In this document: positions 38,195 to 61,822 of the stretch, one piece after another
Position numbering within the stretch: position 1 is the stretch's first letter
Layout: each line of letters begins with the position of its first letter
DNA from: Christiangramia lutea
Lineage (GTDB): Bacteria; Bacteroidota; Bacteroidia; Flavobacteriales; Flavobacteriaceae
Length of the DNA: 64,000 nucleotides
Reading direction: 5' to 3'
Assembly: GCF_022489035.1 (NCBI RefSeq)
Contig: NZ_JAKVTV010000003.1
Location: 372,001-436,000 of the forward strand
Notes under the pieces: generated by a model
The model's input: the letters and a program-made list of their open reading frames with translations, nothing else
The model's database searches: none
Told to the model about the DNA's origin: nothing
Program-made: the position numbers and the translations under genes

Positions 38195-38549
38195 GTTGCG
38201 GCTTTAATCAGCAATAATAAAAAAATACGGAAGATTTGACTCAGAAATCCTAACCGTGTGAAAACTATTTCTGCGGAAATCCAGAAAAAGACAGGCTCTT
38301 TAAAGCATTTTTACCATAAATGGGATGCTTTATATAAACTAAGGGTGAAAAGAAATAGGGGATAATACCCATACGATTAAGCTGAATCATTCAATAATTT
38401 TAGATCTTATTCAAATGCCCTTCCCCATTTTTTGAACAATCTGCTGCGCTATATTATTTGATCCCTATTCCCCCCTGATAATTCTTCGATCGAGTCTATA
38501 GATTAAAGAAGGATAAAGATTTTTTTATTAACCATTCAATTAAATTATT
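38195..38549 (+). other. Intergenic region upstream of the first modular lipoprotein
   Basis: The 355-nt region holds the GGGG-CCC motif and -7 box (38358-38402), a 7-bp inverted repeat AAAGCAT/ATGCTTT (38302-38308/38325-38331), and the shared leader motif TTTATTAACCATTC (38524-38537) 12 nt before the start codon. The predicted 5' UTR is about 140 nt and C-rich in places. No small ORF is convincing. Confidence 0.6.
38358..38402 (+). promoter_or_regulatory. Candidate activator site plus -7 box for lipoprotein A
   Basis: GGGGATAATACCC (38358-38370) is centred 31 bp before TAATTTTA (38395-38402). There is no TTG at the -33 position. The same geometry is seen at 40623-40666 and 61778-61822. It probably binds an activator at about -40. 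Confidence 0.55.
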
Positions 38550-40493
38550 ATGAAAAAAATTAGTATTCAAAGAATGCTGGTAGCATTTCTTGTTGCTCTC
38601 GTAGTTTCCTGTAGTAAAGACGACAAGGTAGCACCAGATGATCTGCAAAATCAAAATGTAGCCATGGTTCATCTTGGTCCGGTTTTAAATGAATTTACAA
38701 ACCAGCAAAACAGGCAGTCTCTTGACGGTTTACCAGATTGTAGTGATGAAGCACCTGGGTTTGCACAAATTTCATTGACTTATGGAGATGATGATACACA
38801 AGTAGATGTGATAGTAGAGATTCTTGAAGATGAGAATGGGTTATTCACGGCCTATGATGAAGACCTTGAAATTCCCATTCCTAGCGGATCCAATACAGTA
38901 TCTGTAACCCTGAATGAGTTTTTCGTTTGGACGAATGTTGATGATGCTCCCGGAGAAATTATCTGGGCAGCCCCTATGACCGGAAGCGATTATGCAGGAT
39001 TTTCTGATACACCACTTCCATTTAGCTGGGAGCTTAGGGCAGGATCTAAGAATTATATTAATGTAGATGTTCTGTGTTTCGATGACAGGTTAGTGAATTT
39101 ATACGGTTATCAGTTCTTCGATATTACTCCGGAAGTGATTTATGAGGTTTGTTTCTTCGCTAATTTTTGCTCAGATGAAGGAAGACACTACACTGCTAAT
39201 TACAGCCTTGATATTTATTATGGTTCTTCGGCCAATGGAATTCCGCTTTACACTGGAGAAATTCCTGTAACTGGAGAAGATGGAGATTTCTATGCAGATC
39301 CACTTTGTCTTGCCATACCAGGACCTCAGAATGAAGAAGCAGATGACGCACCATATTTATACTATGAAGCTACATTATTAGATTGGGAAGATAATTATGG
39401 ATCAGCCAGTGGAGAAATGATCAGTGGAACCTGGAGTTTTAACGATATTCAGGCACTATTGAATGAGGACGGTGAGACCTCAGAATACTTCCACGCTTTT
39501 TTTAATTGTGATGATAGCAACATACCGGTAGACTCTGACGGAGACGGTATTCCCGATGCAGATGATAACTGTCCTAACGTGGCCAATCCAGACCAGGAAG
39601 ATTCAGATGATAATGGAGTAGGTGATGCCTGCGAACCTGGTAATGATGATGACGGCGATGGAGTTCCAAATGATGTAGATGAATGTCCAGATACAGATCC
39701 TGGTGTTGAAGTAGATGAAGTAGGTTGTGAGAGCATCCAGGTACCGGGTAGAGATATTGTTGTTTTAAATGATGCCAATATTTTCGATGAGAACTCCATG
39801 CAAGATCCTAATAATGTTCAATTTGTTAAAAATCTCGTGAATTTTACAACTACAGGTAGCAGAAACGATGGAAGAACTATAATGTTCGACCAGGGTAAAA
39901 ATTCTGCCTGCCCTCAATGTGAGGGAATATGGGGAACAATGCGTAACGTGATCCAGGGTGAAGGCTTTTCCATCTTAGATGTTAGCTCAACAAATGGATC
40001 TTTAACAAGCATACCTGAAGATGTGAAGGTGATCATGCTGGTTATGCCTAATTATCATTATACTACTGAAGAGATCAATACCCTGAAAGCATTTGCTTCA
40101 GAAGGAGGAAGAATCATTTTCATGGGAGAACACGAACTTTATTATGGTGGAGGCATTGCCGTAGAAAATCAATTCCTGATTAATATGGGTGCCGTGCTAC
40201 GAAATACAGGAGGTTATGTAGACTGCCTGGAGTTCAATGGTCAGCCACCAATCGTGATACCTTCTGAATCGATTAGAAGTCATCCCATCATGCAAGGTAT
40301 AGACGGATTGTCGATCGCCTGCGCTTCCATTATTGAACCTGGAGAAGGAGACTTCGCTCTTTTCTATGACACGACAAACACTCACGTTCTTGGTGGTGTG
40401 GCCAAGATAGATACAACGCCAATAAGAAGTAGCGTTGAGATAACCAGTAGAAAATGGAGGACCTCCAGTAGTGCGACCCTTTCAGGAAATTAG
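38550..40493 (+). CDS. Modular surface lipoprotein A: shared N-domain, TSP3 repeats, ThuA-like C-domain
   Basis: The 647-residue protein has a lipoprotein signal with Cys21 followed by SKDD, similar to the acidic export signal of surface lipoproteins in this phylum. Residues about 30-325 form the domain shared with the proteins at 40832, 62133 and 63610 (motifs LGPVLNE, PDCSDEAPGFAQISLTYG, LRAGSKNYINVDVLCFDDR, NLYGYQFF, CSDEGRHYTANYS). Residues about 328-395 hold calcium-binding thrombospondin type 3 repeats (DSDGDGIPDADDNCP). Residues about 405-647 resemble a ThuA/amidotransferase-like fold (VMLVMPNYHYTTEEINTL...GGRIIFMGEHELYYGGG). I do not recognise the shared domain. It has its own promoter and terminator. 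Confidence 0.85.
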   Translation: MKKISIQRMLVAFLVALVVSCSKDDKVAPDDLQNQNVAMVHLGPVLNEFTNQQNRQSLDGLPDCSDEAPGFAQISLTYGDDDTQVDVIVEILEDENGLFTAYDEDLEIPIPSGSNTVSVTLNEFFVWTNVDDAPGEIIWAAPMTGSDYAGFSDTPLPFSWELRAGSKNYINVDVLCFDDRLVNLYGYQFFDITPEVIYEVCFFANFCSDEGRHYTANYSLDIYYGSSANGIPLYTGEIPVTGEDGDFYADPLCLAIPGPQNEEADDAPYLYYEATLLDWEDNYGSASGEMISGTWSFNDIQALLNEDGETSEYFHAFFNCDDSNIPVDSDGDGIPDADDNCPNVANPDQEDSDDNGVGDACEPGNDDDGDGVPNDVDECPDTDPGVEVDEVGCESIQVPGRDIVVLNDANIFDENSMQDPNNVQFVKNLVNFTTTGSRNDGRTIMFDQGKNSACPQCEGIWGTMRNVIQGEGFSILDVSSTNGSLTSIPEDVKVIMLVMPNYHYTTEEINTLKAFASEGGRIIFMGEHELYYGGGIAVENQFLINMGAVLRNTGGYVDCLEFNGQPPIVIPSESIRSHPIMQGIDGLSIACASIIEPGEGDFALFYDTTNTHVLGGVAKIDTTPIRSSVEITSRKWRTSSSATLSGN

Positions 40494-40530
40494 ATTTCCA
40501 TTAAATTATAAACCAAACTTAAAAATAAAA

Positions 40531-40556
40531 AAGTCTCCTTCTGGAGGCTTTTTTTT
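40531..40556 (+). terminator. Terminator after lipoprotein A
   Basis: AAGTCTCC (40531-40538) pairs with GGAGGCTT (40543-40550), one wobble pair, loop TTCT, followed by T8. Confidence 0.82.
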
Positions 40557-40622
40557 GTATTCATGATGAAGGATAATCAATTAAAGGGATTTATTTTGTG
40601 CCAAAGAGTTATAAAAATTTGA

Positions 40623-40666
40623 GGGGAAGCCCCCATTCCAATTTAATAACCTATACAATAAATTTG
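40623..40666 (+). promoter_or_regulatory. Candidate activator site plus -7 box for lipoprotein B
   Basis: GGGGAAGCCCCC (40623-40634) is centred about 30.5 bp before a perfect -7 box TAAATTTG (40659-40666). No -33 TTG is present. Confidence 0.6.
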
Positions 40667-40831
40667 CATATATCTTCGAAGATTTAGCCCTTCCCCAATC
40701 TGGTTGAATTGAATTTACTTCCTCCCTTATGGAACCCTTCAACCCTACAACTCCCCCTAATGATCTTTTATGCGTATTCCGGTTGAGAGGAATGCTGTAG
40801 TAGAGTTGTATAACCTATAACCAAATTAATT

Positions 40832-43741
40832 ATGATTTTTTATTTAAAACGCATCGCTGTTTTGGTGATGTGCACACTATTATTTCACTCTTGTAGTAAA
40901 GAAGAAAATACTCCTGTAAGTGAAATTGATGACTCTGTTGGGATAATTTCATTAGGACCAATTCTTAATGATATGAACAACAGTGATGAATTCAGGCAGG
41001 CACTTGATGAATTGCCCTCCTGTTCAGATCAAAAAGCGGCATTTGCCGAGATATCCCTGGTGTATGGAGAAGGTGAAAAGCTAGTAGAATTAGTTGTTGA
41101 AATTCTTGAAGATGAAAATGGCCTTTTTACGGCCTATGATGAAGCTTTGGAAATTCCAATACCAGAAGGTGAAACCTCCGTTTCTGTTACTTTGAATGAG
41201 TTTTTAGTATGGTCTAATGATGGCGGTGCTCCAGGAGAAATCATCTGGGCAGCTCCAATGGCCGGTAGCGATTTTGAGGTTTTTTCGGAAAATCCACTTC
41301 CCTATACCTGGGATCTGAGAGCAGGTTCAAAAACCTATACAGAAATTGAAGTTTTATGTTTCGAAGACAGGCTGGTTAATCTATACGGTTATCAGTTCTT
41401 CGACATTAATCCGGAAGTGATTTACGAGGTTTGCTTCTTTGCAAACTTTTGTAGTGATTCTGGCAGGCATTATACGGCTAATTACAGCCTTGATATTTAT
41501 TATGGCACCAATAATGAAGGAACTCCTCTATATTCCGGAGAAGTGCCTGTAACCGGAGAAGATGGTGAATTCTATGCAGATCCAATATGTCTGGCTATTC
41601 CCGGTCCGCAGAATGACGAAGCAGATGGCGATCCATATCTTTATTACGAAGCAACGCTTCTTGATTGGGAGGCTAATTACGGTTCAGCTAACGGACAAAC
41701 AGTTTCCGGAACCTGGAGTTTGAATGATATTCAAAGTTTAATGAATGAAGATGGAGAGACTTCTGAATATTTCCATGCTTTTATTAATTGCGATGATGAT
41801 GACGGCGGTGAGCCGGTAGATTCAGATGGAGACGGAGCAGATGATTCTCAGGACAATTGCCCGAATGAAGCAAATGCAGACCAGGCAGATACCGATGAAG
41901 ATGGTGTTGGAGATGCCTGCGACAATTGCCCGGAAAATGCGAATCCTGACCAGGCAGATACTGATGAAGATGGAATAGGCGATGCCTGTGATGAACCATC
42001 AGATTCAGATGGAGATGGGACGGTTGACGCTGAAGATAATTGTCCGGATGTGGCTAACGAAGACCAGGCCGATACTGATGAAGATGGAGTTGGTGATGTT
42101 TGTGATAATTGTCCTGAAGTTGCGAACCCAGACCAGGCTGATACCGATGAAAATGGCGTTGGAGATGCATGCGAGGCAGTAGCACCGGATGGCGATGGTG
42201 ATGGAACACCAGATGCAGACGACAATTGTCCGGATGAAGCAAATGAAGACCAGGCTGATGGCGATGAAGATGGAGTTGGTGATGTTTGTGATAATTGTCC
42301 TGAAGTTGCGAACCCAGACCAGGCTGATACCGATGAAAATGGCGTTGGAGATGTATGCGAGGCAGTAGCACCGGATGGCGATGGTGATGGAACACTAGAT
42401 GCAGACGACAATTGTCCGGATGGAGCCAATGCAGACCAGGCTGATGCCGATGAAGATGGGGTTGGAGATGTTTGTGACAATTGTCCTGAAGACGCAAATC
42501 CAGATCAGGCTGATGGCGATGAAGATGGAGTTGGTGATGTATGCGAGGTAATAGCAACGGATGGCGATGGTGATGGAACACCAGATGCCGATGATAATTG
42601 TCCGGATGAAGCAAATCCCGGTCAAGTTGATACCGATGGTGACGGTGTTGGTAATACCTGCGATAATTGTCCAGATGAGGCCAATCCTAACCAGGAAGAT
42701 TCCGATCAAGATGGAATAGGAGATGCCTGTGAAGTTAACAATCCTCCTGGGGATGGTGGAGATTTAATTAATGGTGAAAATCATTATGGTATAATTGAGA
42801 CACCGAATGAACAGCATATTTGGACTTTTTCAGCTACTGAAGGGGACTTTATTCAGCTCAATATGAGCAATGTTTCAGGAGCTCTTGGACCGCAAATGCG
42901 GTTGTTAGGGCCTAATGGTGATGAAGTTGGATTTAGAGGTTCACACGGCGCATCAATAGGACTTGTCATTGAAGATTTACCAGAAACGGGGATTTACCGT
43001 GTTATTGCAGGTGATTACGGAGCTGACAATACGGGAGAATATTTTATCCAACTCGCTCATGCTCCAAAAACTTTTGAAGTTCCTGAAGGGGACGAGGGAG
43101 GCACAATATCTAATGGTGCAAACATTTATGGCAGTATAACTTCAGCAGATATGGATCAGTGGACTTTTATGGCAAATGAAGGAGATTTCATATTGCTAAC
43201 TATGGCAAGGACAGCAGGAAACCTTGGCCCTCAAATTCGATTGCTTTCACCCTCAGGAGATATAATAGGCTTAAGAGGTTCACATGGTGAGACTACAGCT
43301 GTCACAGTCGAAGATGCTCCTATGAGTGGTGCCTACAGAATTATATTGAGTGATTATGGGGCTGATAATACCGGTGATTATGCAATTCGTCTTGCTCATG
43401 CTCCAGAAGATTTTGTGATTCCTGATGGAGATGAGGGCGGGGCAATGACCATTGGTACAAATCATGCCGGTAATTTACCTTTGAGTGATATTGATCAATG
43501 GACATTTACTGCTGCTGAAGGTGATTTTGTACAATTAACCATGGCTCGAATTTCGGGCAATTTTGGCCCACACATTCGATTAATTTCACCGACTGGTGAT
43601 GTAGTGGGTTCCCGTGGTAGCCATGGTGAATCCACGGCGCTTGTTATTGATAATGTGCCGGAAAGTGGTACATATAGAGTTATTGTACACGATTATGGAG
43701 CAGATCATATAGGTGAATACTTACTCACTCTTATAAAATGA
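40832..43741 (+). CDS. Modular surface lipoprotein B: shared N-domain, ten TSP3 units, three PPC-like repeats
   Basis: The 969-residue lipoprotein has Cys21 followed by SKEE. Residues about 30-325 are the shared domain, closely similar to A. Residues about 330-634 are a long calcium-binding TSP3 array with ten DNCP units in five pairs (DxDxDGxxDxxDNCPxxxN, DxDEDGVGDxC). Residues about 640-969 hold three repeats of about 108 residues (WTF...EGDF..L.M...G.LGPQ.RLL.P.G...G.RGSHG...Y.V...DYGADNTG.Y...LAHAP) resembling pre-peptidase C-terminal (PPC) beta-sandwich domains. No enzyme domain is seen; an extended adhesin-like stalk is plausible. A palindromic terminator follows. Confidence 0.87.
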   Translation: MIFYLKRIAVLVMCTLLFHSCSKEENTPVSEIDDSVGIISLGPILNDMNNSDEFRQALDELPSCSDQKAAFAEISLVYGEGEKLVELVVEILEDENGLFTAYDEALEIPIPEGETSVSVTLNEFLVWSNDGGAPGEIIWAAPMAGSDFEVFSENPLPYTWDLRAGSKTYTEIEVLCFEDRLVNLYGYQFFDINPEVIYEVCFFANFCSDSGRHYTANYSLDIYYGTNNEGTPLYSGEVPVTGEDGEFYADPICLAIPGPQNDEADGDPYLYYEATLLDWEANYGSANGQTVSGTWSLNDIQSLMNEDGETSEYFHAFINCDDDDGGEPVDSDGDGADDSQDNCPNEANADQADTDEDGVGDACDNCPENANPDQADTDEDGIGDACDEPSDSDGDGTVDAEDNCPDVANEDQADTDEDGVGDVCDNCPEVANPDQADTDENGVGDACEAVAPDGDGDGTPDADDNCPDEANEDQADGDEDGVGDVCDNCPEVANPDQADTDENGVGDVCEAVAPDGDGDGTLDADDNCPDGANADQADADEDGVGDVCDNCPEDANPDQADGDEDGVGDVCEVIATDGDGDGTPDADDNCPDEANPGQVDTDGDGVGNTCDNCPDEANPNQEDSDQDGIGDACEVNNPPGDGGDLINGENHYGIIETPNEQHIWTFSATEGDFIQLNMSNVSGALGPQMRLLGPNGDEVGFRGSHGASIGLVIEDLPETGIYRVIAGDYGADNTGEYFIQLAHAPKTFEVPEGDEGGTISNGANIYGSITSADMDQWTFMANEGDFILLTMARTAGNLGPQIRLLSPSGDIIGLRGSHGETTAVTVEDAPMSGAYRIILSDYGADNTGDYAIRLAHAPEDFVIPDGDEGGAMTIGTNHAGNLPLSDIDQWTFTAAEGDFVQLTMARISGNFGPHIRLISPTGDVVGSRGSHGESTALVIDNVPESGTYRVIVHDYGADHIGEYLLTLIK
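41821..42735 (+). repeat. Tandem TSP3-coding DNA repeats, about 186-bp period
   Basis: Five paired units of about 61-62 codons are in register. The segment 42101-42286 is nearly identical to 42287-42472 (both start TGTGATAATTGTCCTGAAGT), and a more diverged unit begins at 42473. This is a recent in-frame tandem duplication within the gene. Confidence 0.85.
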
Positions 43742-43770
43742 TGAAATTTATCAACACTAATTAAATGTAG

Positions 43771-43797
43771 AACTGCCCAATATTGGGCAGTTTTTTT
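43771..43797 (+). terminator. Terminator after lipoprotein B
   Basis: AACTGCCCAA (43771-43780) is followed directly by its reverse-complement region ending GGGCAGTT (43792), a perfect 22-bp palindrome, then a T run. Confidence 0.9.
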
Positions 43798-43875
43798 ATT
43801 TGGAAATCTTAAAAATGTAAACGTTATATTTTCTCTGTCGTTTTGTATTTTTATGCTCTAACCAACCAATAAATA

Positions 43876-44295
43876 ATGACGAAAGAAGAAATGCTCGAGC
43901 TTTCCAAAAAAGTATGTAAAAATACTTTGATGGAAACTCTAGAAATTGAATTCACTGAAATAGGCAAAGATTACTTGATCGCAAAAATGCCGGTTAATTC
44001 CAGGGTACATCAACCAGATGGAGTTTTACATGGTGGAGCCAGCGTGGCCCTGGCTGAAAGTGTGGGTAGTATGGCTAGTTATGTTTTTTTAAATACAGAT
44101 GAATTCTTTGTTCGAGGAATTGAAATTTCTGCCAACCATTTAAAAAGTATCAGGGATGGATGGGTTTACGCTAAAGCCACTTTTATCCATAAAGGAAGAA
44201 CTACTCAATTGTTTGAGATCAAGATAACCGATGAAGAAGAGAATTTGATCTCTATTGTGAAACTTACAACCATTGCTCTTCCAAAAGAAAGATAA
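43876..44295 (+). CDS. Hotdog-fold thioesterase, probable DHNA-CoA hydrolase
   Basis: The 139-residue PaaI/YdiI-type thioesterase has the motif VLHGGASVALAESVGSMAS, whose Glu is the usual catalytic residue of the 4-hydroxybenzoyl-CoA thioesterase-like class. It overlaps the isochorismate synthase gene by 1 nt and heads a menaquinone cluster. Hydrolysis of 1,4-dihydroxy-2-naphthoyl-CoA (MenI role) is therefore likely. Confidence 0.85.
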   Translation: MTKEEMLELSKKVCKNTLMETLEIEFTEIGKDYLIAKMPVNSRVHQPDGVLHGGASVALAESVGSMASYVFLNTDEFFVRGIEISANHLKSIRDGWVYAKATFIHKGRTTQLFEIKITDEEENLISIVKLTTIALPKER

Positions 44296-45440
44296 TGACC
44301 AACGCTGAAGAATTCTATAAAAAGCTGAGGGATCAGTTGCAGTCTGATTTTCCATTTGTGGCCTACCGAAAACCTGGAGAAATATTGGTAAAGGCTTTAT
44401 TACAAGAAGAAAAAAAAACCTTTAAAATCGGGGATTATACCGAATGTGGATTCGCTTTTGCGCCTTTCGATGCTAATGCTTCGGTTTATTTAATCCCCTC
44501 GGAATATTCTGAATTTACACAATATCAACCTATTTCCAGAGAGGAGGAAGCTCTTGGCAATCCTTCAGTTTCAGCATTCGATTTTGAATTTTCGGAAATG
44601 GATCAGAAAGATCACGAAAGCCTGGTTCAGAAAGGAATAGACCATATTAGGGATGGAGAATTCAAGAAAGTAGTTCTGTCGCGGTCTGAAGAAGTCATGG
44701 TTCTCGATCCAGATCCACTTCAAATCTTTAAAAAGCTATTGGATAGATACCCTCAAGCGATGGTTTATTTATGGAGTCATCCGGAGACGGGAATCTGGCT
44801 TGGTGCAACACCTGAAACTTTACTGAAGGCAGAAAGAAACAAATTCCAAACTATGGCTCTGGCAGGAACCCAGGTATTTTCGGGGGAGACCGATGTAGAA
44901 TGGGAAAGTAAAGAAGTTGAGGAACAACTTTTTGTTACCGATTTTATCCTGGAGAATCTTGAAAACCTCGAGAATGTAGAAAACATCAAGACCACCAGAC
45001 CATATTCCGCAAGGGCAGGGAATCTACTACATATATGTACAGATATATTAGGAAATTTAAAGGATCCTGAAAATCTTGGCAGTTTAATTAAGACATTGCA
45101 TCCAACTCCGGCAGTATGCGGATTACCAAGGGATAGTGCCTTGCGATTTATTATTCAGAATGAGAATCATTCCCGTGAATTCTATTCAGGTTTTATGGGA
45201 GAATTAAATATCAAAACAGAAAATAAACGAAGCTCTAACCGACGAAACCAGGAAAATCAGCAGTTCAAATCCATTACAAAACAAACCGAACTATACGTAA
45301 ACCTAAGGTGTATGAAACTAAAGGACGGGAAGGCTAACATATTCGTAGGTGGCGGGATTACCAAGGATTCAAATGCAGCAGATGAGTGGATGGAAACGGT
45401 GAATAAATCCCAGACCATGAAATCTGTACTTGTTAAATAA
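44295..45440 (+). CDS. menF: Isochorismate synthase
   Basis: The 381-residue chorismate-binding enzyme has the conserved core (KVVLSRSEEV, LGATPETLLKAERN, MALAGTQ, LHPTPAVCGLPRD, YSGFMGE, VNLRCMKL, VGGGITKDSN), which identifies an isochorismate/anthranilate-type synthase. The shorter, poorly conserved N-terminal part is typical of isochorismate synthases. It lies between the thioesterase and menD, so it supplies isochorismate for menaquinone. Confidence 0.93.
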   Translation: MTNAEEFYKKLRDQLQSDFPFVAYRKPGEILVKALLQEEKKTFKIGDYTECGFAFAPFDANASVYLIPSEYSEFTQYQPISREEEALGNPSVSAFDFEFSEMDQKDHESLVQKGIDHIRDGEFKKVVLSRSEEVMVLDPDPLQIFKKLLDRYPQAMVYLWSHPETGIWLGATPETLLKAERNKFQTMALAGTQVFSGETDVEWESKEVEEQLFVTDFILENLENLENVENIKTTRPYSARAGNLLHICTDILGNLKDPENLGSLIKTLHPTPAVCGLPRDSALRFIIQNENHSREFYSGFMGELNIKTENKRSSNRRNQENQQFKSITKQTELYVNLRCMKLKDGKANIFVGGGITKDSNAADEWMETVNKSQTMKSVLVK

Positions 45441-45490
45441 GCACAAAAACCATGTATTAAATTGCCTGTAAATTGTAATTTTGGGCATCT

Positions 45491-47224
45491 ATGAAGTACT
45501 CGAAAATCCCTGTTGCCCGCTCTGTGGTTGCTCTTTGCGTGGCCAAAGACATCAAACATGTTGTTATTTCTCCCGGATCCAGAAATGCTCCTCTAACTAT
45601 AGGGTTCACCCATCATACCGATATTTCAGCTTATAGTATAGTAGATGAAAGGTGCGCTGCTTTTTTCGCCCTGGGAATGGCCCAGCAATTAAAGAAACCC
45701 GTTGCTTTAGTCTGTACTTCAGGTTCTGCCTTATTGAACTATTACCCGGCTATTGCTGAGGCTTTCTACAGTGATATTCCATTGGTGGTTATTTCGGCAG
45801 ACAGGCCCATAGAACGTATAGATATTGGAGATGGACAGACCATCAGGCAGAAGAATGTCTTTGAGAATCATATTTTATATTCGGCGAACCTGTATTCAGA
45901 ACTTGTATTAGAGCAGGAAACGAGTGATCCTAAGCTTCAGCAAAAGCAGTTCGAAGCGCAGAAACATAACGAAAGAGAAGTGAACCTGGCACTTAATAAA
46001 GCTATTGAAGAGAAGGGGCCAGTGCACATAAACGTACCTTTTTATGAGCCTTTATATGATACTATCGCAGACATAGATGTTAAACCCCTTCAAATTCTAC
46101 CGGAGATAAGGGAAAGACATTATTCGGAAAATCAGCTGGCCAACTATGCCAGTGAATGGAACAGGGCAAAACGGAAAATGCTGATCGTTGGAGTTGCTCA
46201 ACCAAATTTAGTAGAGCAACAATTTTTAGATAAACTGGCCAATGATCCGAGTGTGATTGTTTTAACTGAAACTACTTCGAATTTAGATCAGCCGGAATTT
46301 TTTACTAGGATCGATACACTTATCGGGCCCATTGAAAAAGATGAAAAGAAGGAGGATTTATTCAGGCAATTACAGCCGGATATTCTGCTCACCTTTGGAG
46401 GGATGATTGTTTCAAAGAAGATAAAAGCTTTTTTAAGAAATTATAATCCTCAGCATCACTGGCATATTGATCCTAAAAAGGCGTACAACACATTCTTCTG
46501 TTTGAATAAACATTTTGAAACCAATGTGAATGCATTCTTTTCAGAATTTTTCCCGTTAATAAAAAGTACTGAAAGTGATTATGGAAGCTTCTGGAAAGAC
46601 ATAAGGAATAAAAGACAGGTTAGGCATGAGGAATATATGGCTGAAATACCTTATTCAGATCTTAAGGCTATGCAACAAATTGTACCCGAGGTTCCTGAAC
46701 ACAGCATAGTTCATTTTGGAAATAGCTCCACCATAAGATATGCACAATTATTCCAATGGCACGAAAGCCTAAAAACCTTTTGCAATCGGGGAACCAGCGG
46801 GATTGATGGTAGTGTTTCAACTGCTGTGGGAGCTGCTGTGAGCAGTAAGGAACCAGTTCTATTGATCACCGGGGATCTGAGTTTTTTCTATGATAGCAAT
46901 GCACTCTGGAATAACTATATACCTTCAAATTTCAGGATTATCGTTCTTAATAATAATGGTGGAGGTATTTTCAGAATATTACCCGGAAATAAGAATTCGG
47001 AAAATTTTGACCGCTACTTCGAAACGGTTCATGATTTAAAGGCCGAACCCCTCTGTAATTTATACAACTTTGAATATTATGCGGCAGATTCAGAGAATGC
47101 AATAAGTGAGAATTTGAATGGCTTCTTTAAAGAATCTGAAAGGCCAAAGCTGCTAGAGATCTTTACTCCTCGAAAATTGAATGATGAAGTACTACTTGAA
47201 TATTTCAATTTTATGAAATCTTAA
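45491..47224 (+). CDS. menD: SEPHCHC synthase (menaquinone synthesis)
   Basis: The 577-residue ThDP enzyme adds a succinic semialdehyde unit from oxoglutarate to isochorismate. It shows HVVISPGSRNAPLTIGF at the N-terminus, CTSGSALLNYYPAIAEAF, and the ThDP motif GDLSFFYDSNALWNNY followed by NNNGGGIFRILPG. It lies 50 nt after menF. A -7-like TAATTTTG occurs at 45476-45483, so it may also have its own promoter. Confidence 0.95.
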   Translation: MKYSKIPVARSVVALCVAKDIKHVVISPGSRNAPLTIGFTHHTDISAYSIVDERCAAFFALGMAQQLKKPVALVCTSGSALLNYYPAIAEAFYSDIPLVVISADRPIERIDIGDGQTIRQKNVFENHILYSANLYSELVLEQETSDPKLQQKQFEAQKHNEREVNLALNKAIEEKGPVHINVPFYEPLYDTIADIDVKPLQILPEIRERHYSENQLANYASEWNRAKRKMLIVGVAQPNLVEQQFLDKLANDPSVIVLTETTSNLDQPEFFTRIDTLIGPIEKDEKKEDLFRQLQPDILLTFGGMIVSKKIKAFLRNYNPQHHWHIDPKKAYNTFFCLNKHFETNVNAFFSEFFPLIKSTESDYGSFWKDIRNKRQVRHEEYMAEIPYSDLKAMQQIVPEVPEHSIVHFGNSSTIRYAQLFQWHESLKTFCNRGTSGIDGSVSTAVGAAVSSKEPVLLITGDLSFFYDSNALWNNYIPSNFRIIVLNNNGGGIFRILPGNKNSENFDRYFETVHDLKAEPLCNLYNFEYYAADSENAISENLNGFFKESERPKLLEIFTPRKLNDEVLLEYFNFMKS

Positions 47225-47296
47225 GCATAGTCTAACATTTGTTAAGACTCATTATTCTTATATTCCAGATCATTAACCACTAATAAATATAGAATT

Positions 47297-47641
47297 ATGA
47301 GTAAACTTGATGAAAAAGTAGGACAGTACATAGATGACTTGAAATCTAAAGTAGGCGAATCTAACCCCGACATTGACCTGGTAAGGAAGATCGCGGAATC
47401 TATGGGTCCCAGCATTTATAATGCAGATGCTGAAACTGTGTCTTCTTCCAGTGAATCTGAGGTAGATACCGTAAAAAAGAATTTCGTGATGAAGAAACTT
47501 GGGGTAACCGATGAATCTAAAGTAAATGAGGCGGTTAACCAAGTGCTCGAGAAATATGGGAAATCCAACCGTAATAAATACAGAGTTGTAGTTTACTATT
47601 TGCTAACCAAGCACTTTGGAAAAGAAAGCCTTTATAAATAA
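47297..47641 (+). CDS. DUF2853 family protein
   Basis: The 114-residue small soluble protein is mostly helical, with no signal peptide. The sequence (MSKLDEKVGQYIDDLKSKVG..., ending LLTKHFGKESLYK) matches my memory of the DUF2853 family. Function is unknown. It is a single gene between menD and the S1-domain gene, with a strong terminator after it. Confidence 0.8.
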   Translation: MSKLDEKVGQYIDDLKSKVGESNPDIDLVRKIAESMGPSIYNADAETVSSSSESEVDTVKKNFVMKKLGVTDESKVNEAVNQVLEKYGKSNRNKYRVVVYYLLTKHFGKESLYK

Positions 47642-47663
47642 GGACTTCAAAATTCAGAATTTC

Positions 47664-47700
47664 ATCCGTTTTTGGGATATTCCCTTAAACGGATTTTTTT
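47664..47700 (+). terminator. Terminator after the DUF2853 gene
   Basis: ATCCGTTT (47664-47671) pairs with AAACGGAT (47687-47694), with an inner stem GGGA/TCCC (47674-47677/47681-47684), followed by T7. Confidence 0.85.
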
Positions 47701-47742
47701 ATTTATGATTAAACCTATCTTTGTAGGCTAAAGTTTTACAAT

Positions 47743-48576: not shown

Positions 48577-49010
48577 TAATTAAATCGGTAAGGAGAATAT
48601 CTCCTGTAGTTTAATCTACTCTGGTTGTAGGGGCTTGAAAAATAAGGATTCATGAAGTTGTCATTCGGATCCCTGGTTTCAAAATCTCCTGAAATTTCAA
48701 ATATCTTTTTCTCTTTTTTTCTTTGAGGTAGTGGTGAACCTAGATCAATTTTTCGTTCAATCTTATTACGGTTGGTTTTGTCTATAACAGCGAGCATATC
48801 TACCTGATCTTTTTGTATGTCAGGTCTTAAGTGTAAGAAGGAACCATCAGGTAGGTTGAAATTAGATTCGGTTTGCCAACTAAAACCGATCTCTCTCCAT
48901 GAATTTTCAATACTTCGATTGCTGATTTCAAAATCCTCCTTGTCCCAGTATTCCTGAGCCTGGGTAAAATACCCGCACATTAAGAATATAAGAAGTAACC
49001 GAAGTTTCAT
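48573..49010 (-). CDS. Secreted hypothetical protein
   Basis: The 145-residue protein has a signal peptide (MKLRLLLIFLMCGYFTQAQ). The mature part is charged, with a Tyr/Asn/Arg-rich C-terminus (NQSRLNYRRYSPYRFNY). I recognise no family. It converges with the CvfB gene (4-nt overlap). It is likely real because of the clear signal peptide. Confidence 0.6.
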   Translation of the reverse strand: MKLRLLLIFLMCGYFTQAQEYWDKEDFEISNRSIENSWREIGFSWQTESNFNLPDGSFLHLRPDIQKDQVDMLAVIDKTNRNKIERKIDLGSPLPQRKKEKKIFEISGDFETRDPNDNFMNPYFSSPYNQSRLNYRRYSPYRFNY

Positions 49011-53736: not shown

Positions 53737-53926
53737 GTTTTTGAATGGTAACAAATGTAGCGAAAAGTATCATTAAATACAATTCAAATTTTTAAGCAAA
53801 AACTGATAATAATGTAATTTTAACCTTTAATTGTTATTTATTCGAGAATTTAAGTCTGTTGTATTATGAATTTGTTGATAATATCGAAATTGAGGTAAGG
53901 ATAATTTAAATATCAGTTAATCAGTA

Positions 53927-56737
53927 TTAATACCAACGCCTGGTGAATAATCTTATAAGGGTATTTATATCCAGGGCTACGATAAATCTTATCTTCTGGT
54001 CATAATTTGGATCGTCAAGTTCCCATCCCAGGCTGGAATATACCGGGAAGAAAAGTTCAAAATAATCCTGGACTAAACTAACCCTAATCCCTGAATCGAA
54101 TAAAAGTTTACCGTTATCACCTTCGTTCGTAACTATTCCCACATCTCCATAGGCATGGATCCATTTCCAGATATTAGTACTTGCATTTGCCGAAATAAGC
54201 CATTCATTGGCGAATTCTGGCTGCAGTTGAGATTTAAAACCACCTTCAGCCACAATTATCTGCTGGCTGAATAGTCCGCTTCCCTGGCTGCGACCATAAT
54301 AATTATAATCGAACAGGTAATCTGTAGGTCTGTCCAGGGCAAAGCTGAAATAGTCATTATCCTTGGCATCATTATAAAGGAATATCCCGGAAAAGAACCT
54401 CAGGTTGATCTGCCTGTTATTTTTGAAAAGCTTACGATACTCGGCAGTGAAGGAAACCTTGCTGAATTTATCTGATAACTGATAATCGAAAGAAGCGGTT
54501 AGATGTTTTAGGAAATTTGGATTGCTGTAGCTGTATTTTACATTGAAGACATTATAGTCGGGTTCCAGTAATGGATCTACCGGATTTTGATCACGTCTTA
54601 CGTTAACATTACGTATTACCAGCCTCTGGCGTTCATTGCTTCTTAAATATGAGTTTCGGAAGGAAAAGATCAGGAATGGACTGAACTTTTCATAAAAAAG
54701 GTCATACCCATAGGAAAATCTTGATCCTCCAATTCCATAAAATATATTGTATAATTCCTTGTTTTCGAATTGATGTGAATTGAAAATAGAGGCAGACCCT
54801 ACCAGGGTTTTACTGTTAAAGCCATATTTTGGAGAAAGAGCAAAATTAAAGGTTCTGCTAAGAATGGTTTTATTATAAAGTTTTGGACCAATAGAAACTC
54901 CATCATACAGGTTATACTCAAATTCAGGCATAAAGAATATCTGGTGATATCTTGGATCTTCCACGTCCTGAAATAGCCGGAATTGAATAGGTTTATCTAA
55001 TAATTTTGATACTCCTTTATAATTGTTCCGTTGATTGAACTCCGGAATTTCCTGGTTATAATTTAAAGCAAGCCTTTCAAAATCATCGTTTGGAATGGTA
55101 ACAGTGGCGGTATCCCGTACATTTTCCACCCAGGTCTTGTAAACAACTTCCTTATCCTTTATACCATAAAGACTTACAGGCATTGAGTTATTTCGTAAAT
55201 TCTGGATTGTAACCTTTAGAGAGTCTTTGCCTTTTTCCAGATCCTTTATTCGGAAATCGATCTTATTGTTGGTGCCTACATAATCCTCAAAGAACCAGCT
55301 AATATCCTTGGATGCATTTTTTTGAAGAACCTCTTTAAAATCCTCATCGGTAACTTTTTTAAGATTGTATTTTGAGTAAAATTCTGAAACAGATTCCTGA
55401 ACTGATTCATCGCCAAGAAAGCTTTCGAGGTATTTTATTCCGGCGCCAGCCTTGTATGCATTGGCGATATTCTTATTAAATTTCACCAAGGAATCCTGAC
55501 TGGTAGTAAGTGGCTGGTCCAGGTTAAGTCTGGCCATATTCATATAAAGGAACTGGTATTGATCATTAAACTCAAGATCAGCAGCATGGAACCAACGAAT
55601 TCCTATGATCTTACTCAGATTCCCAAGAAGTTTCATATTAGGATAGTAGGTGTCTACGTAATCCATCATCAAGGACACCATAATGGCATCGGTCACCCAT
55701 TTTTCCTTTCGGGGATTGATGAAAATGGTATTCTGAAGATAATTGCTGGTGATGGTTTTAAATAATTTAATGTCGTATTGAAAACCATCTGGGAAAGGTC
55801 TAATAAAACTTGGAAGCTGGTTGAGACCATAGATCGGGCTTTTCAGGTAATCTTCCTGGGTTACAAAAATGTTCTCGTGCGGGTAAATGCCTAACCTTTC
55901 ATTCAGGAAGTTTACGCTACGTTCTATAAGGGTGTTTTTAATATCGAAATTGATATCTTCATCTTCAATATTTGTTATAACCTGATTCGAATTTGCGCTT
56001 AAAGATTCGAAGATATAAGACCTGGTGAGGTACATTTTACTTTCTACGCGGTGGTTCCCCCTAAAATTAATGGTTTTATACCCCTGTCTGGTTTGAGTTT
56101 GCACAAGGTTCAATCCAGATGCTGCATAATAGGCTGTAGGAACATCAATAGATATATCAATTTTGTAAGGCTCTACATATTGCAATCCAAGATCCTTATG
56201 GCTATATAGCTTCCAGCCATTGTCAAGCGGGGCTGGAGTCATGTACCAATACCTTAATTTATAATTGCCAAGATCATCTCTTCCAAACCGGGTAAACTTA
56301 TCATCGGGAATTCTCAGGTCGTATTGAAGATCTAGCGTGATAGAGTCACCCGGTGCCAGCGGTTCTTCCAGGTTAAGTCTCAGGAGGTCCACTACTTCGC
56401 CTGGTCGGTCCCAGGCAATCTGGTTGCCATCTTCATTTTTTATCGAATGTATAGTGGTGCGACCTCTTTCTTCATCTTTAGCAAAATGAAAGCGCCTGGC
56501 AAAATCTTCAGCAAAACGTTTTGCCAATGCCGAAGATTTAGAGCTGAAAGCATTATTCCAGTCATTAAGATAGATACTTACTAAATCCCTGTTTTCAGTA
56601 TTTATCAGTTTGATTTTCTGATCGATGGAAATAATGCGTGTGCTGTCGTTAAGACGCGCTTTCACACCGATGACATTCTGAGCAGAAAGACATCCCGAAT
56701 AAATAAGAAGTATCAGGAAAAACTGAAGGTGTCTCAA
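53927..56737 (-). CDS. M1-peptidase-like outer-membrane protein without HExxH
   Basis: The 936-residue protein has a signal peptide (MRHLQFFLILLIYSGCLSAQ). Residues about 25-560 follow the M1 aminopeptidase layout (N-terminal beta domain, gluzincin-like core), but the expected HExxH site reads KTITSNYLQNT, so it is probably not a peptidase. Residues about 600-936 are strand-rich with alternating aromatics and end in TRRWY, typical of an outer-membrane beta-barrel. The role is unknown. The neighbouring E1 and LOG genes give no clue. Confidence 0.75.
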   Translation of the reverse strand: MRHLQFFLILLIYSGCLSAQNVIGVKARLNDSTRIISIDQKIKLINTENRDLVSIYLNDWNNAFSSKSSALAKRFAEDFARRFHFAKDEERGRTTIHSIKNEDGNQIAWDRPGEVVDLLRLNLEEPLAPGDSITLDLQYDLRIPDDKFTRFGRDDLGNYKLRYWYMTPAPLDNGWKLYSHKDLGLQYVEPYKIDISIDVPTAYYAASGLNLVQTQTRQGYKTINFRGNHRVESKMYLTRSYIFESLSANSNQVITNIEDEDINFDIKNTLIERSVNFLNERLGIYPHENIFVTQEDYLKSPIYGLNQLPSFIRPFPDGFQYDIKLFKTITSNYLQNTIFINPRKEKWVTDAIMVSLMMDYVDTYYPNMKLLGNLSKIIGIRWFHAADLEFNDQYQFLYMNMARLNLDQPLTTSQDSLVKFNKNIANAYKAGAGIKYLESFLGDESVQESVSEFYSKYNLKKVTDEDFKEVLQKNASKDISWFFEDYVGTNNKIDFRIKDLEKGKDSLKVTIQNLRNNSMPVSLYGIKDKEVVYKTWVENVRDTATVTIPNDDFERLALNYNQEIPEFNQRNNYKGVSKLLDKPIQFRLFQDVEDPRYHQIFFMPEFEYNLYDGVSIGPKLYNKTILSRTFNFALSPKYGFNSKTLVGSASIFNSHQFENKELYNIFYGIGGSRFSYGYDLFYEKFSPFLIFSFRNSYLRSNERQRLVIRNVNVRRDQNPVDPLLEPDYNVFNVKYSYSNPNFLKHLTASFDYQLSDKFSKVSFTAEYRKLFKNNRQINLRFFSGIFLYNDAKDNDYFSFALDRPTDYLFDYNYYGRSQGSGLFSQQIIVAEGGFKSQLQPEFANEWLISANASTNIWKWIHAYGDVGIVTNEGDNGKLLFDSGIRVSLVQDYFELFFPVYSSLGWELDDPNYDQKIRFIVALDINTLIRLFTRRWY

Positions 56738-56814
56738 TTAGTAATAGATTTAGAACCGAATAGCAATTAGGGCTAAATATAGTCAATCTTTGAAACCTTC
56801 AACAGGCCTGTTAA

Positions 56815-57504
56815 CTAGAAATTAGGACTAAGATTATATTCACCATAGAATTGATCAAGGATCTCGATAACCTCGTCTTCGGTATCCACTACCTGAACAA
56901 GATCAATATCCTCAGCGCTAATATTTTGAAAACTATCCAGTAGCGTACTTTTGATCCAGTCTACCAGGCCACTCCAGAATTCAGTTCCAACAAGAATAAT
57001 AGGGAATTTATCTATCTTATGTGTTTGAATTAAGGTGATCGCTTCGAATAGTTCATCTAGGGTTCCGAAACCTCCTGGCATTACTACAAATCCCTGAGAA
57101 TATTTAACGAACATTACCTTTCGAACGAAGAAATAATCGAAATCCAGGCTTTTGTCATTGTCAATATAAGGATTGTCGTGTTGTTCAAAGGGTAATTCAA
57201 TATTCAATCCTACGGAAGTACCACCAGCCAGGTGAGCACCCTTGTTTCCAGCTTCCATAATTCCGGGACCACCACCGGTTATAACACCATAACCGTGTTC
57301 TACGATCTTTTTGGCAACTTTTTCAGCAAGTTTATAGTATTTCATATCCGGCTTTGTCCTCGCGGAACCGAATATAGAGACACATGGGCCAATCTGGCTA
57401 AGTTTTTCGTAACCGCTTACGAATTCCCCCATGATCTTGAAGATAGCCCAGGAATCATTGGTTTTAATTTCGTTCCAGGCCTTATTCCTATTATGTGTTT
57501 TCAT
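56815..57504 (-). CDS. LOG-family Rossmann-fold protein
   Basis: The 229-residue protein of the TIGR00730/LOG family has the motifs GGGPGIMEAGNKGA and PGGFGTLDELFEA (PGGxGTxxE). These bind nucleoside monophosphate in cytokinin riboside phosphate phosphoribohydrolases; bacterial relatives act as nucleotide 5'-monophosphate nucleosidases. It is 9 nt downstream of uvrA on the same strand and probably cotranscribed. Confidence 0.9.
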   Translation of the reverse strand: MKTHNRNKAWNEIKTNDSWAIFKIMGEFVSGYEKLSQIGPCVSIFGSARTKPDMKYYKLAEKVAKKIVEHGYGVITGGGPGIMEAGNKGAHLAGGTSVGLNIELPFEQHDNPYIDNDKSLDFDYFFVRKVMFVKYSQGFVVMPGGFGTLDELFEAITLIQTHKIDKFPIILVGTEFWSGLVDWIKSTLLDSFQNISAEDIDLVQVVDTEDEVIEILDQFYGEYNLSPNF

Positions 57505-57513
57505 ATTTCTTGA

Positions 57514-60345
57514 TTAGTGCAGTTCCTTTTTAAGGAACCTTGCTGTATAACTTTTTTTCTTTTTGATGAGCTCTTCCGGTGTACCGGTTGCTACAACTTT
57601 TCCACCACCTTTTCCGCCTTCGTATCCAATATCGATTATATGGTCTGCCATTTTTATGACATCCATATTATGTTCAATTATAAGTACGGTATTACCCTTA
57701 TTGGTAAGAGTATTTAATACATCCATTAAAACTCTGATATCTTCAAAATGAAGTCCGGTTGTTGGCTCGTCTAATATATAGAAAGTATTTCCGGTATCAC
57801 GCTTAGAAAGTTCAGTTGCAAGTTTTATTCTTTGCGCCTCACCTCCTGAAAGAGTTGTAGATTGCTGACCGAGACTTATATAGCCTAATCCAACGTCCTG
57901 GATTGTTTTTAATTTTCTGTAGATCTTCGGGATATTTTCGAAGAAAGGAGTAGCCTCATCGATGGTCATTTCGAGAATATCTGCAATAGACTTTCCTTTA
58001 TATCTTATTTCAAGGGTTTCTCTATTGAATCGCTTTCCCTGACAGGTTTCGCATTCTACATAAACATCTGGCAGAAAGTTCATTTCAATAACCCTTAGAC
58101 CACCACCTTTACAGGTTTCGCATCTTCCACCTTTTACATTGAAACTAAACCTTCCGGGTTTGTAACCTCTAATCAGGGCTTCGGGGGTTTTGGCGAAAAG
58201 GCTTCTTATTTCTGAAAAAACCCCGGTATAGGTGGCCGGGTTAGAACGTGGGGTTCTACCTATAGGACTCTGATTAATGTCTATCACTTTATCGATATGG
58301 TCCAGACCTTTGATACTTTTATAGGGTTGTGGTTTTTTAACCCCGTTGAAGTAATGAGCATTCATAATAGGGTAAAGGGTTTCATTGATCAGTGTGGATT
58401 TTCCACTCCCTGATACTCCTGTTACCGCGATCATCTTACCTAAAGGAATGCTGATATTTACATTTTTAAGGTTATTTCCCGTTGCTCCTTTAAGTTCAAT
58501 TTTCTTTCCGTTTCCTTTTCTTCTTTCCTTTGGTACGGGAATTTCCTTTTTTCCGCTTAAATAATCTGCCGTAAGGGTTGCGTGTTTCATAAGTTCGTTT
58601 GGAGTACCTTCACTAATGATCTCACCTCCATGTTTTCCGGCACGTGGCCCTATATCTATCACATGGTCTGCCCTTTCGATCATATCTTTATCATGCTCAA
58701 CTACGATCACCGTATTCCCAATATCACGAAGTGATTCCAAAGAATTGATCAGTTTTTCATTGTCTCTTTGGTGCAACCCTATGCTAGGTTCATCCAGGAT
58801 ATAAAGGACACCAACCAGCTGCGACCCAATTTGGGTAGCCAGTCTGATTCTCTGTGCTTCTCCTCCGGAAAGAGACTTGGAACCACGGTTAAGGTTAAGG
58901 TATGTTAGTCCAACGTCTAATAGAAACTGAAGCCTGGTCCTTATTTCTTTAACAACTTCCTCGGCGATCTGTAGCTGCTTTTCGCTAAGTTTTTTCTCAA
59001 TATTTTCGAACCAATTAAAAAGGTCGGTGATGTCCAGATGGGAGAGTTCAGCAATATTCTTATCATGGATCCTAAAATAGAGTGCCTCTTTTTTCAGCCT
59101 GGAACCTTCACATTTCGGACATATAACTTTGTCCATATATTCCTTGGACCATCTTCTTAAAGAGGAAGAATCGTTATTTCTATAGGTGGTTTCAATAAAA
59201 TTGGCAACGCCTTCAAAATCTATTTTATAATCCCTGGTAATTCCAAGAGCCTTAGATTCCCTGGAAAATTTTTCTTTTCCTCCATGAAGGATCATTTCAA
59301 GTGCTTCTGCCGGAATTTGTTCTATAGGATCTGTCAGTTTAAAATCAAACCTTTCTGCAATAAGTTCAAGTTGAGAAAAAACCCAGTTCTTCTTTTGCGG
59401 TCCGTGAGGTGCAAGCCCTCCATTCTTAATCGATTTTTTCCTGTCTGGGATTATCTTAGACGTATTCACCTGGTAAAGGGTACCTATACCATTACATTTT
59501 GGGCATGCGCCTTTAGGAGAATTAAAAGAAAAGCTATTTGGTTCAGGATTTGGATAACTAATACCGGTGGTGGGACACATAAGATTTCTACTGAAATACC
59601 TTATAGATCCTGTTTCCTGATCCAGAATCATTAAAGTATCATCTCCATGATACATGGCTGTTTTGATACTTTCTGAAAGTCTTTTGTCTGAATCTGGTTT
59701 TTCCTCGATCTTAAGCCGGTCTATAACGATCTCGATATCGTGGGTCTTATATCTATCGAGTTTCATCCCTTTTTCGATATCAACCACTTTTTCATCGGTT
59801 CTTACTTTTATAAAACCCTGTTTGGCAATTTGCTCGAACAGTTCCCGGTAATGCCCTTTTCGACTCCTCACTACAGGCGCAAGGATAATCACTTTCCTTC
59901 CTTTAAAATTTTCCAGGATCAGTTCTTTAATTTGGGAATCTGTATAGCTAACCATTTTCTCTCCTGTGTTATAACTATAGGCTTCGCCAGCCCTGGCAAA
60001 AAGCAAACGTAGAAAATCATAAATTTCGGTAATGGTTCCCACGGTACTTCTGGGATTCTTACTGGTGGTCTTTTGTTCTATAGCAATTACAGGAGATAAA
60101 CCTTCGATCTTATCTACATCTGGCCTTTCCAGACTTCCTAAAAACTGACGGGCATAGGCTGAAAAGGTTTCAATATATCGCCTTTGTCCCTCCGCATAAA
60201 TTGTATCGAATGCTAAGGATGATTTTCCCGATCCGGAAAGACCTGTAATTACTACAAGTTTCTCTCTGGGAATATTAACATCTATATTTTTGAGATTATG
60301 GACGCGGGCGCCTAAAACTTCAATTCTATCTTCACTTTTTGCCAT
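57514..60345 (-). CDS. uvrA: UvrABC system protein A
   Basis: The start at ATG 60345 ([20 protein letters not shown]) gives 943 residues. UvrA is the damage-recognition ATPase of nucleotide excision repair. It has two ABC ATPase modules (Walker [11 protein letters not shown] and [10 protein letters not shown]; signature LSGGEAQRI twice) and the UvrB-binding insertion at about residues 130-230. The C-terminal zinc finger is intact (CETCKGGG...CETCQGKR). The first zinc site reads CPTT...CPKC, one cysteine short. Confidence 0.95.
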
Positions 60346-60723
60346 AGGATTTTTCAAGGGGGCAAAGTTACTTATTCAATTAATATTTAAAAAGTCCATA
60401 GCAAGTTACTGATGTTAAGGTTGGTGTAAATTTTTCGTATGATTTCAGCTTTATTTTGGGATGCTGGAAGAAGATCATAATTTTTTCTATCAAATCGAAA
60501 GAACTTTAAAGTCTTAAATAGAGCCATTAAACTCTTTTTTAAGAATCTGAATGTCAGGATAATACTACTTGTTTTTTTACCGAAAATAAGTGTAATCACC
60601 TATATTTGAAAGTCCGAAAATTTTTTCCCAAATCTCTTCTTACGATTTTTTTACCCTTGGAAAAGTTAAATGTATGCCCCTGCATTTCATTTAAAGTATT
60701 TGAAAATTTAACGCAGATTGATA

Positions 60724-61731
60724 ATGGAAAAAAGACAACTATTAATTGTTAGCAGGAACCAGCATTTTATTGACGCTTTGGAGGAAAAGGTAAGTGTCGA
60801 TTTTGAGGTTAATTCGGAGCAGTCTATTCATGTAGCCTTTAATACAGCTCTTAACTTATTGCCTGATACTATAATATTTGATAAAACTTCCTATACAAAG
60901 GTCTCAGATTTCAGAAACCTTAAAAATTTCAAATCTACTCACTTTCTGAATAAGAGTTATCTGGCCGTTTATGGGAATAAAAATGATATATCATTATTAA
61001 AGAAGCGGTATAAGACTTTTATAGATGAATACCTTGATGAGAGTACCGATCTTGAAAATATCGCCACCAGGATCTTAAAGGTGAAAAGTAATACCAAATG
61101 TAATTACTGGCATGAATGTTTTATGGGGTTATTCAATCTTATGGCCCAGCCAATCGTTCTTCTTCAGCAAAATAATATCATTGAAATGAATGATGCATTT
61201 AAGAAGACCTTTCGTATGGATAATACGAACGGAGTAAGACTGACTGATCTAGTAAACATTGATAATAAGGCAAAGGTTAAAACAGCCCTCAGGAATTTTG
61301 CCCGGGGAAAACACATGAAAGCAGTTACCACAACAACTTTACTGGTTCATAATGACAAATTGCGAAATGCAAAAATAAGCTTCTCTAAGCTCAGCCGTAG
61401 TATTACAGATCAATTCATCATGCTTATTGACTTCTCGGGAGAAGAGTATGCGATTGATGAAAAGGTTGGAACTCATGCAGACCAGGTAGAGAAATGCTTC
61501 AAAGAGAACAGTGAGATGGCAGAATTTAGTTTTACAAATCGGGAAAAGGAAATCATTAGTTTGCTATGCAAAGGATATAAGACTAAAGAGATCTCTGATA
61601 CATTATTCATTTCACCAAAGACCATAGAGAAACATAGATCCAATATTATAAAAAGGACAAACTCTGAAACTATACTGGAAAGTATCATTTATGCCATTAA
61701 CCATAACCTGGTTGATTTTCCAATGTCCTGA
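60724..61731 (+). CDS. LuxR-type regulator with degenerate receiver and PAS-like domains
   Basis: From ATG 60724 the protein has 335 residues. Residues about 4-110 look like a response-regulator receiver: Asp53 is kept in TIIFDKTSY, but the usual acidic pair after strand 1 is missing (IVSRNQ), so phosphorylation is doubtful. Residues about 130-235 resemble a PAS domain (FNLMAQPIVLLQQNNIIEMNDAFKKTF). Residues about 270-335 are a LuxR/GerE helix-turn-helix (FTNREKEIISLLCKGYKTKEISDTLFISPKTIEKHRSNI). It ends 47 nt before a GGGG-CCCCC promoter motif and about 400 nt before a lipoprotein of the family, which makes it the prime candidate for the activator. Confidence 0.85.
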   Translation: MEKRQLLIVSRNQHFIDALEEKVSVDFEVNSEQSIHVAFNTALNLLPDTIIFDKTSYTKVSDFRNLKNFKSTHFLNKSYLAVYGNKNDISLLKKRYKTFIDEYLDESTDLENIATRILKVKSNTKCNYWHECFMGLFNLMAQPIVLLQQNNIIEMNDAFKKTFRMDNTNGVRLTDLVNIDNKAKVKTALRNFARGKHMKAVTTTTLLVHNDKLRNAKISFSKLSRSITDQFIMLIDFSGEEYAIDEKVGTHADQVEKCFKENSEMAEFSFTNREKEIISLLCKGYKTKEISDTLFISPKTIEKHRSNIIKRTNSETILESIIYAINHNLVDFPMS

Positions 61732-61777
61732 ACAAGTTTTAAAAAACTGTTAAACAGTATGTTAATTTAAAAATATA

Positions 61778-61822
61778 GGGGTTTTCCCCCATAAGCGACA
61801 CCATAGCTGTTTCATAAATTTA
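61778..61822 (+). promoter_or_regulatory. Candidate activator site plus -7 box for lipoprotein C
   Basis: GGGGTTTTCCCCC (61778-61790) is centred 31 bp before TAAATTTA (61815-61822); no -33 TTG. The adjacent LuxR-type gene ends 47 nt upstream of the motif. Confidence 0.6.

Follow-up and report, generated by a model that had tools for sequence, protein, structure and literature searches.

A candidate GGGG-CCCC operator shared by a PAS-LuxR regulator gene and a lipoprotein family in Christiangramia and related Flavobacteriia

At class II activator promoters, the site of the activator, for example, CRP or LuxR, lies near -42. Promoters of Flavobacteriia lack a classical -35 element and, to our knowledge, only a small number of specific activator-operator pairs has been described for these bacteria. 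Here, we analyse a stretch of 64,000 nucleotides (nt) from a Christiangramia (Gramella) genome (Flavobacteriia; C23:372001-436000), hereafter the window, in which a GGGG-n-CCC palindrome followed by a TAnnTTTR promoter box (the -7 box) is found upstream of lipoprotein genes and next to the gene for a LuxR-type regulator (hereafter luxR). As at class II activator promoters, a fixed site just upstream of the box appears to replace the -33/-35 element; the differences are that the promoter is of the Bacteroidota type, that the site is centred at about -43.5 and that activation is predicted from sequence.

Among the described regulators, VqmA of Vibrio cholerae and of the vibriophage VP882, with operators at vqmR and qtip and with 3,5-dimethylpyrazin-2-ol (DPO) as the ligand, likewise consists of a PAS domain followed by a GerE helix-turn-helix (HTH) domain. 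The critical VqmA operator is printed as AGGGGGGATTTCCCCCCT, a GG-N6-CC palindrome (PMC8284805); its core, GGGGATTTCCCC, is also present in the consensus of the luxR-adjacent sites analysed here, and the VP882 phage site, TAGGGGGAAAAATACCCT, resembles the site at 38358 of the window. Unlike VqmA, the Christiangramia regulator contains an additional N-terminal pseudo-receiver, its putative targets are lipoprotein genes rather than a small RNA or qtip, and the promoters are of a different type, with TAnnTTTR. With the response regulators of the NarL/FixJ type (VraR, LiaR, NarL), it shares the receiver fold, but it carries a PAS domain between the receiver and the HTH, and the acidic pair is absent although D53 is invariant. 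Among the matches listed in the open-access literature, we found no description of this regulator, its operator, or the micro-ORF (open reading frame) and small RNA discussed below.

Palindromes at a fixed distance from the promoter box

The comparisons described here provide good sequence-level support for a conserved, largely dedicated regulon, in which the LuxR-type protein probably binds the palindrome, activates the lipoprotein family in a class II-type manner and represses its own gene. The features of the window on which this proposal is based are the following.

38358..38402, forward strand: site 1, GGGGATAATACCCAT at 38358-38372, -7 box TAATTTTA at 38395-38402
38550..40493, forward strand: lipoprotein, 647 amino acids (aa), family N-terminal domain (N-domain) and TSP_3 repeats
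40623..40666, forward strand: site 2, GGGGAAGCCCCCAT at 40623-40636, -7 box TAAATTTG at 40659-40666
40832..43741, forward strand: lipoprotein, 969 aa, family N-domain, TSP_3 repeats and PPC domain
60589..60608, forward strand: degenerate palindrome copy AGTG-TAAT-CACC adjoining the luxR -7 box TATATTTG, candidate autorepression site
60724..61731, forward strand: luxR regulator gene, pseudo-receiver at about 2-125, PAS at about 127-240, LuxR/GerE HTH at 269-323
61778..61822, forward strand: site 3, GGGGTTTTCCCCCAT at 61778-61792, -7 box TAAATTTA at 61815-61822
61823..62132, forward strand: long 5' leader, C-rich in places, in which the pre-start segment is duplicated
61987..61998, forward strand: micro-ORF ATG AAA ACT TAG (M-K-T-stop), conserved in the genus
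62133..63524, forward strand: lipoprotein, 463 aa, family N-domain and a C-terminal fold like Cu/Zn superoxide dismutase (SOD)
63610..64000, forward strand: next family gene, start only, cut by the window end; two further ones lie beyond it on the contig (C23:437687 and 438790)

The three sites and their boxes lie where the earlier note had placed them, with the box beginning 36-37 nt past the first G. A motif followed by a box at a free gap of 15-35 nt occurs three times in the window, against 0.31 expected, and none of 100 shuffles reached three. The bare GGGG-n-CCC is not enriched in the window (11 observed vs 16.2 expected), and in the complete genome the loose pattern (gap 15-30 nt) yielded 8 matches, the same number as the reversed control, so the bare motif was rejected as a descriptor. 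Six of these 8 matches have the box at 36-37 nt, and two of the six belong to a second class of sites outside the window (see below). Across 24 genomes of the genus, with a gap of 22-28 nt, the summed rows gave 133 matches, compared to 73 for the reversed pattern; thus, many single matches are noise and, at the level of sequence, it is the exact motif-to-box spacing that separates signal from noise. A refined 45-nt pattern, with up to two mismatches, matched six places in the own genome, four of which are promoters of the lipoprotein family (C1:597119 and C23:410358, 412622 and 433778), the other two falling inside ORFs.

The relatives of luxR come from Christiangramia, Gillisia, Salinimicrobium and one unplaced Flavobacteriaceae metagenome-assembled genome, and in orthologous loci of the three named genera the palindrome GGGGAtttCCCCyAT is located just 3' of luxR. 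Of the 31 luxR loci from named genomes, one (L043), in which the contig ends at the gene, was dropped. In all 30 remaining loci, the first G of the element lies 13-50 nt past the matched luxR coding stretch; the left half contains at least three G in 29 of the 30 (the exception is L033), and a strict TAnnTTTR box is found at 37-39 nt in 26. The exceptions to the box are L030, with none at that distance, and L036-L038, with TACATTGA. These 30 sequences are related and correspond to a weighted count of 11.5; their consensus is aGGGGAtttCCCCcAt, about 23 nt, and then TAcaTTTA. The position downstream of luxR (site 3 begins 46 nt past the stop codon) and the potential of GGGG-n4-CCCC to form a short hairpin could also indicate an intrinsic terminator of luxR, and runs of 5 and 4 T are present in L032 and L041, respectively. 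However, in 28 of the 30 loci, there is no run of at least 4 T within 12 nt, so a terminator was rejected for these loci, and the same element with the same box spacing precedes unlinked family genes; on this evidence, we regard termination as very improbable.

The reading as an operator was examined with lipoprotein genes located away from luxR. The N-domain has no Pfam family; it is encoded at 8 places in the own genome and is present in 23 of the 24 genomes of the genus. The test set comprised 27 upstream regions (19 of genus family genes away from luxR, 6 from Salinimicrobium and 2 from the window), and the scoring matrix was trained on the luxR-adjacent sites only. Of the 12 highest-scoring regions printed from a first control set of 158, all belonged to luxR or the divergent uvrA; because the intergenic region shared by these two genes holds the motif, their upstream regions were removed, leaving 96 controls (the sources differ slightly, with L192 added), and for the 27 test regions the scores of the run with the first set were retained. 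Twenty of the 27 family regions score above the maximum (13.2) of the 96 controls, drawn from stretches preceding ORFs of the same loci and often overlapping coding DNA (Mann-Whitney p 2.8e-10), and each of the 20 outscores the best of its own 40 shuffles. A strict box accompanies 17 of the 20, always at 36-37 nt. In the window, sites 1 and 2 score 20.6 and 16.5, above all controls, with two mismatches and one mismatch to the genus pattern, respectively, whereas site 3 has none.

Among 79 genomes, the lipoprotein family is found in 27, namely, all 24 that carry luxR and 3 with weak matches only. With up to one mismatch, the pattern matched 72 times in these 79 genomes, compared to 4 for the reversed pattern; 64 of the matches are in the luxR genomes (24 of 24) and 8 in 4 of the 55 genomes without luxR. 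Eleven of the 64 are a single recurring sequence (GGGGATACCACCTATTT...), the counterpart of which in the own genome is inside an ORF, so these are probably not sites. It could be argued that a motif without enrichment in its bare form arose by chance and was multiplied, without function, along with the duplicated genes of the family, whose promoters could be alike by descent. This explanation has negligible probability in our assessment, given that the flanks and leaders have diverged while the palindrome and the box persist across three genera and that the pattern is almost restricted to genomes with luxR.

In contrast to the spacing from motif to box, the distance from motif to start codon is variable. 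From the first G, it amounts to 192, 209 and 355 nt in the window, and to 120-493 nt across the 26 luxR loci measured, window included, which rules out the similar distances proposed earlier. Of the dedicated regulon suggested in the earlier note, what the computations support is a small regulon on one lipoprotein family, the activator-type site position and the linkage to the neighbouring LuxR gene. The published operator of the PAS-LuxR protein VqmA, with its shared core, provides a precedent.

The lipoproteins share the N-domain but differ behind it, where TSP_3 repeats, a PPC domain or a Cu/Zn-SOD-like fold is found; we infer a surface role, in adhesion or protection. The SOD-like C-terminus of the protein encoded at 62133-63524 was recognized with Foldseek (1.5e-5), the Pfam match to Sod_Cu being only at E 0.094. 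By eye, the metal ligands of this fold look incomplete.

The regulator, its own promoter and the proposed circuit

The regulator consists of a pseudo-receiver, a PAS domain and a LuxR/GerE HTH. In Pfam, GerE scores above the cut-off and PAS_8 below it (E 0.0019); the structure model contains both a PAS fold and a receiver fold. When this model was compared using Foldseek, the eight top matches were VqmA chains, with the best solved match at E 3.4e-10. Among the Pfam matches of the regulator listed up to E 1, none is to the autoinducer-binding domain of the acyl-homoserine-lactone LuxR family. In an alignment of the regulators read by eye, D53 is invariant, no acidic pair comes after strand 1, and the conserved Lys is not evident, so that a complete phosphorylation pocket (acidic pair, Asp, Thr/Ser, Lys) could not be recognized. 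Three scanned neighbours of luxR (ORF 56815-57504 lies outside the scan) include no kinase.

A further copy, missed in the earlier note, is found at the promoter of luxR itself. There, the element runs directly into the -7 box, for example, GGGG-AAAT-CACC-TATATTTG, and, counting the window, 22 of 32 loci show this arrangement, with 0-1 nt between element and box; in 13 of them, the left half contains at least three G. In L033, the box of the luxR promoter is poor. Contact with the -7 box places the site where a repressor would bind, which suggests autorepression of luxR.

At the lipoprotein promoters, the position is different. In Flavobacterium psychrophilum, the TAnnTTTR box is printed at -12 to -5 (PMC9723704); with start positions assigned accordingly, the palindrome would span about -49 to -38, with the centre at about -43.5. 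The earlier note held that a -33 TTG is absent from these promoters; this applies to 24 of the 30 luxR-adjacent sites, to site 61778 and to 19 of the 20 passing further sites, but not to the rest. The missing TTG bears on the sign of regulation. At the luxR promoter, the motif is placed as for a repressor, and activation does not follow from the spacing alone, so the LuxR-type protein might repress the lipoprotein promoters, too, from -43 until a signal releases it. The near-invariant distance to the box, expected for contact with RNA polymerase, together with the TTG counts just given, speaks against this variant, which we consider improbable.

The preferred explanation, then, combines activation with autorepression. 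From the computed features, namely, conserved sites with a fixed spacing that are also present at unlinked family members and co-occur with the regulator, and the domain make-up, we infer DNA binding, opposite effects at the two positions (activation at the lipoprotein promoters, repression at luxR), dimerization and a signal perceived by the PAS domain. The LuxR-type protein (60724-61731), probably as a dimer, would bind GGGGAtttCCCCyAT; at lipoprotein promoters, where the site replaces the -33 element, it would act as a class II-type activator, whereas, once bound at the luxR promoter, it would obstruct RNA polymerase and thereby keep its own level low. A signal sensed by the PAS domain would set the binding.

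Several observations weigh against this explanation. Seven of the 27 test regions (L128, L130, L132, L134, L146, L186 and L191) fall under the control maximum, although L132 (score 10.1) contains a weak but visible copy and L146 is a distant relative; L143, L144 and L188 pass by virtue of the palindrome, without a strict box; and the coding DNA among the controls weakens the comparison itself. A -33-like TTG with a 20-nt spacer is present at six luxR-adjacent Salinimicrobium sites and at L188. The copy at the luxR promoter was not found in 10 of the 32 loci (L026, L027, L035-L040, L043 and L045), and that of the window (60589-60608) is half-decayed, with an intact right half and a decayed left half; fuller forms are found in other species. 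Some genomes contain additional pattern matches before apparently unrelated genes: inspection by eye of 11 such regions in other genomes revealed one family lipoprotein (L266) and no common target among the remaining ones. Finally, VqmA is not the nearest relative by sequence, the HTH being closer to VraR/LiaR, with VqmA only at E ~0.4; judging from the structure model, the likeness is in the domain folds and the operator, not in close sequence.

If the explanation is correct, the regulator and its target family can be named, along with the consensus and the fixed geometry of the operator and a site of self-regulation, and each of these is open to direct testing; it also suggests recognition of a GGGG-CCCC operator by PAS-LuxR proteins from two distant phyla. 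Two genomes of one genus in another family (G061 and G072) each contain three matches of a related form, in most cases AGTGAwwTCACCYAT, followed by the box at 37 nt, although neither yielded a luxR orthologue; these matches perhaps represent a sister regulon.

The long leader and its micro-ORF

The ATG at 61987, previously taken for the remnant of a start codon, is not a decayed start but opens a conserved micro-ORF of 2-3 codons. A script run on the genus loci detected ATG-AAR-(NNN)-stop 157-209 nt past the box in 18 of 21 luxR-adjacent leaders; its 22nd row took the window site 40623, and it had no row for L064 and for the Salinimicrobium locus L068. The micro-ORF is also present in the window (MKT-stop) and, by eye, in L064 (MK-stop) and L060 (MRN-stop), and is absent from the L061 and L062 leaders. 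The start, the Lys codon and the early stop are kept, while the third codon is variable (ACN, AAN, GCG, GAA or none). The pre-start segment TTATTAACCATTCTAAATATTATTAACCAA, or a near form of it, precedes both the micro-ORF ATG and the real start; it is therefore likely to be the product of a tandem duplication that was subsequently retained.

A more elaborate, two-level circuit can be tentatively envisaged, with a VqmA-like operator through which the family is activated and luxR repressed, and with the Met-Lys-x-stop ORF of the first target tuning translation; we would give this extended version somewhat less than even chances.

The leaders are also C-rich: CCCCC occurs in 15 of 26 unlinked family leaders with the operator masked (17 of 26 leaders have C-tracts without masking), compared to 6 of 96 controls. 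Pairing of these leaders with the G-rich loops of the small RNA described below, noticed by eye, was set aside because Salinimicrobium leaders also contain C-tracts whereas the RNA was found only in Christiangramia.

A second class of sites and a candidate small RNA

The region about 5-6 kb to the left of the window contains GGGG-N6-CCCC followed by a box, mostly TAyATTTG, at 37 nt, as do other Christiangramia genomes. Downstream of these sites is a candidate new small RNA, conserved and about 113 nt long, whose end resembles a terminator.

13602-13714 and 15048-15158 of L013, - strand: candidate small RNA copies behind GGGG-N6-CCCC promoters

A covariance model, run with the stricter filters for large searches, found 33 copies in 23 of the 24 genus genomes and none in the 55 other genomes; there is no Rfam match at the thresholds, and the weak matches are unrelated. 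That this geometry serves in at least two settings supports the activator-position reading. The neighbours of the small RNA include a HisKA_3 kinase and a NarL-type regulator.

This NarL-like regulator (L013 17380-18063) raises the question of whether a protein other than the product of luxR binds the palindrome as a class II-type activator, luxR being only a neighbour or a target. It adjoins GGGG-N6-CCCC sites with the 37-nt spacing, so that more than one regulator may read such palindromes, and its recognition helix is similar to that of the LuxR-type protein (SPKTIE in common, 28% identity over 60 residues). However, the N6 sites have a 6-nt spacer and the flank CCCCTT instead of CCCCYAT; luxR, the lipoprotein family and the N4 pattern occur together in different genera, while the N6-served RNA was found only in Christiangramia; and the palindrome is also found at luxR's own promoter. 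We therefore consider another binder unlikely and continue to favour the product of luxR.

The region beside the small RNA (L013 13849-18063) also encodes proteins of 119-127 aa and membrane-like proteins of 245-250 aa without a clear family. By eye, a third use of GGGG-N6-CCCC near 37 nt was noticed in L002 (degenerate), L159, L168, L171, L176, L181 and L182, where the sites precede a very short ORF resembling a membrane peptide that adjoins a retropepsin-like gene.

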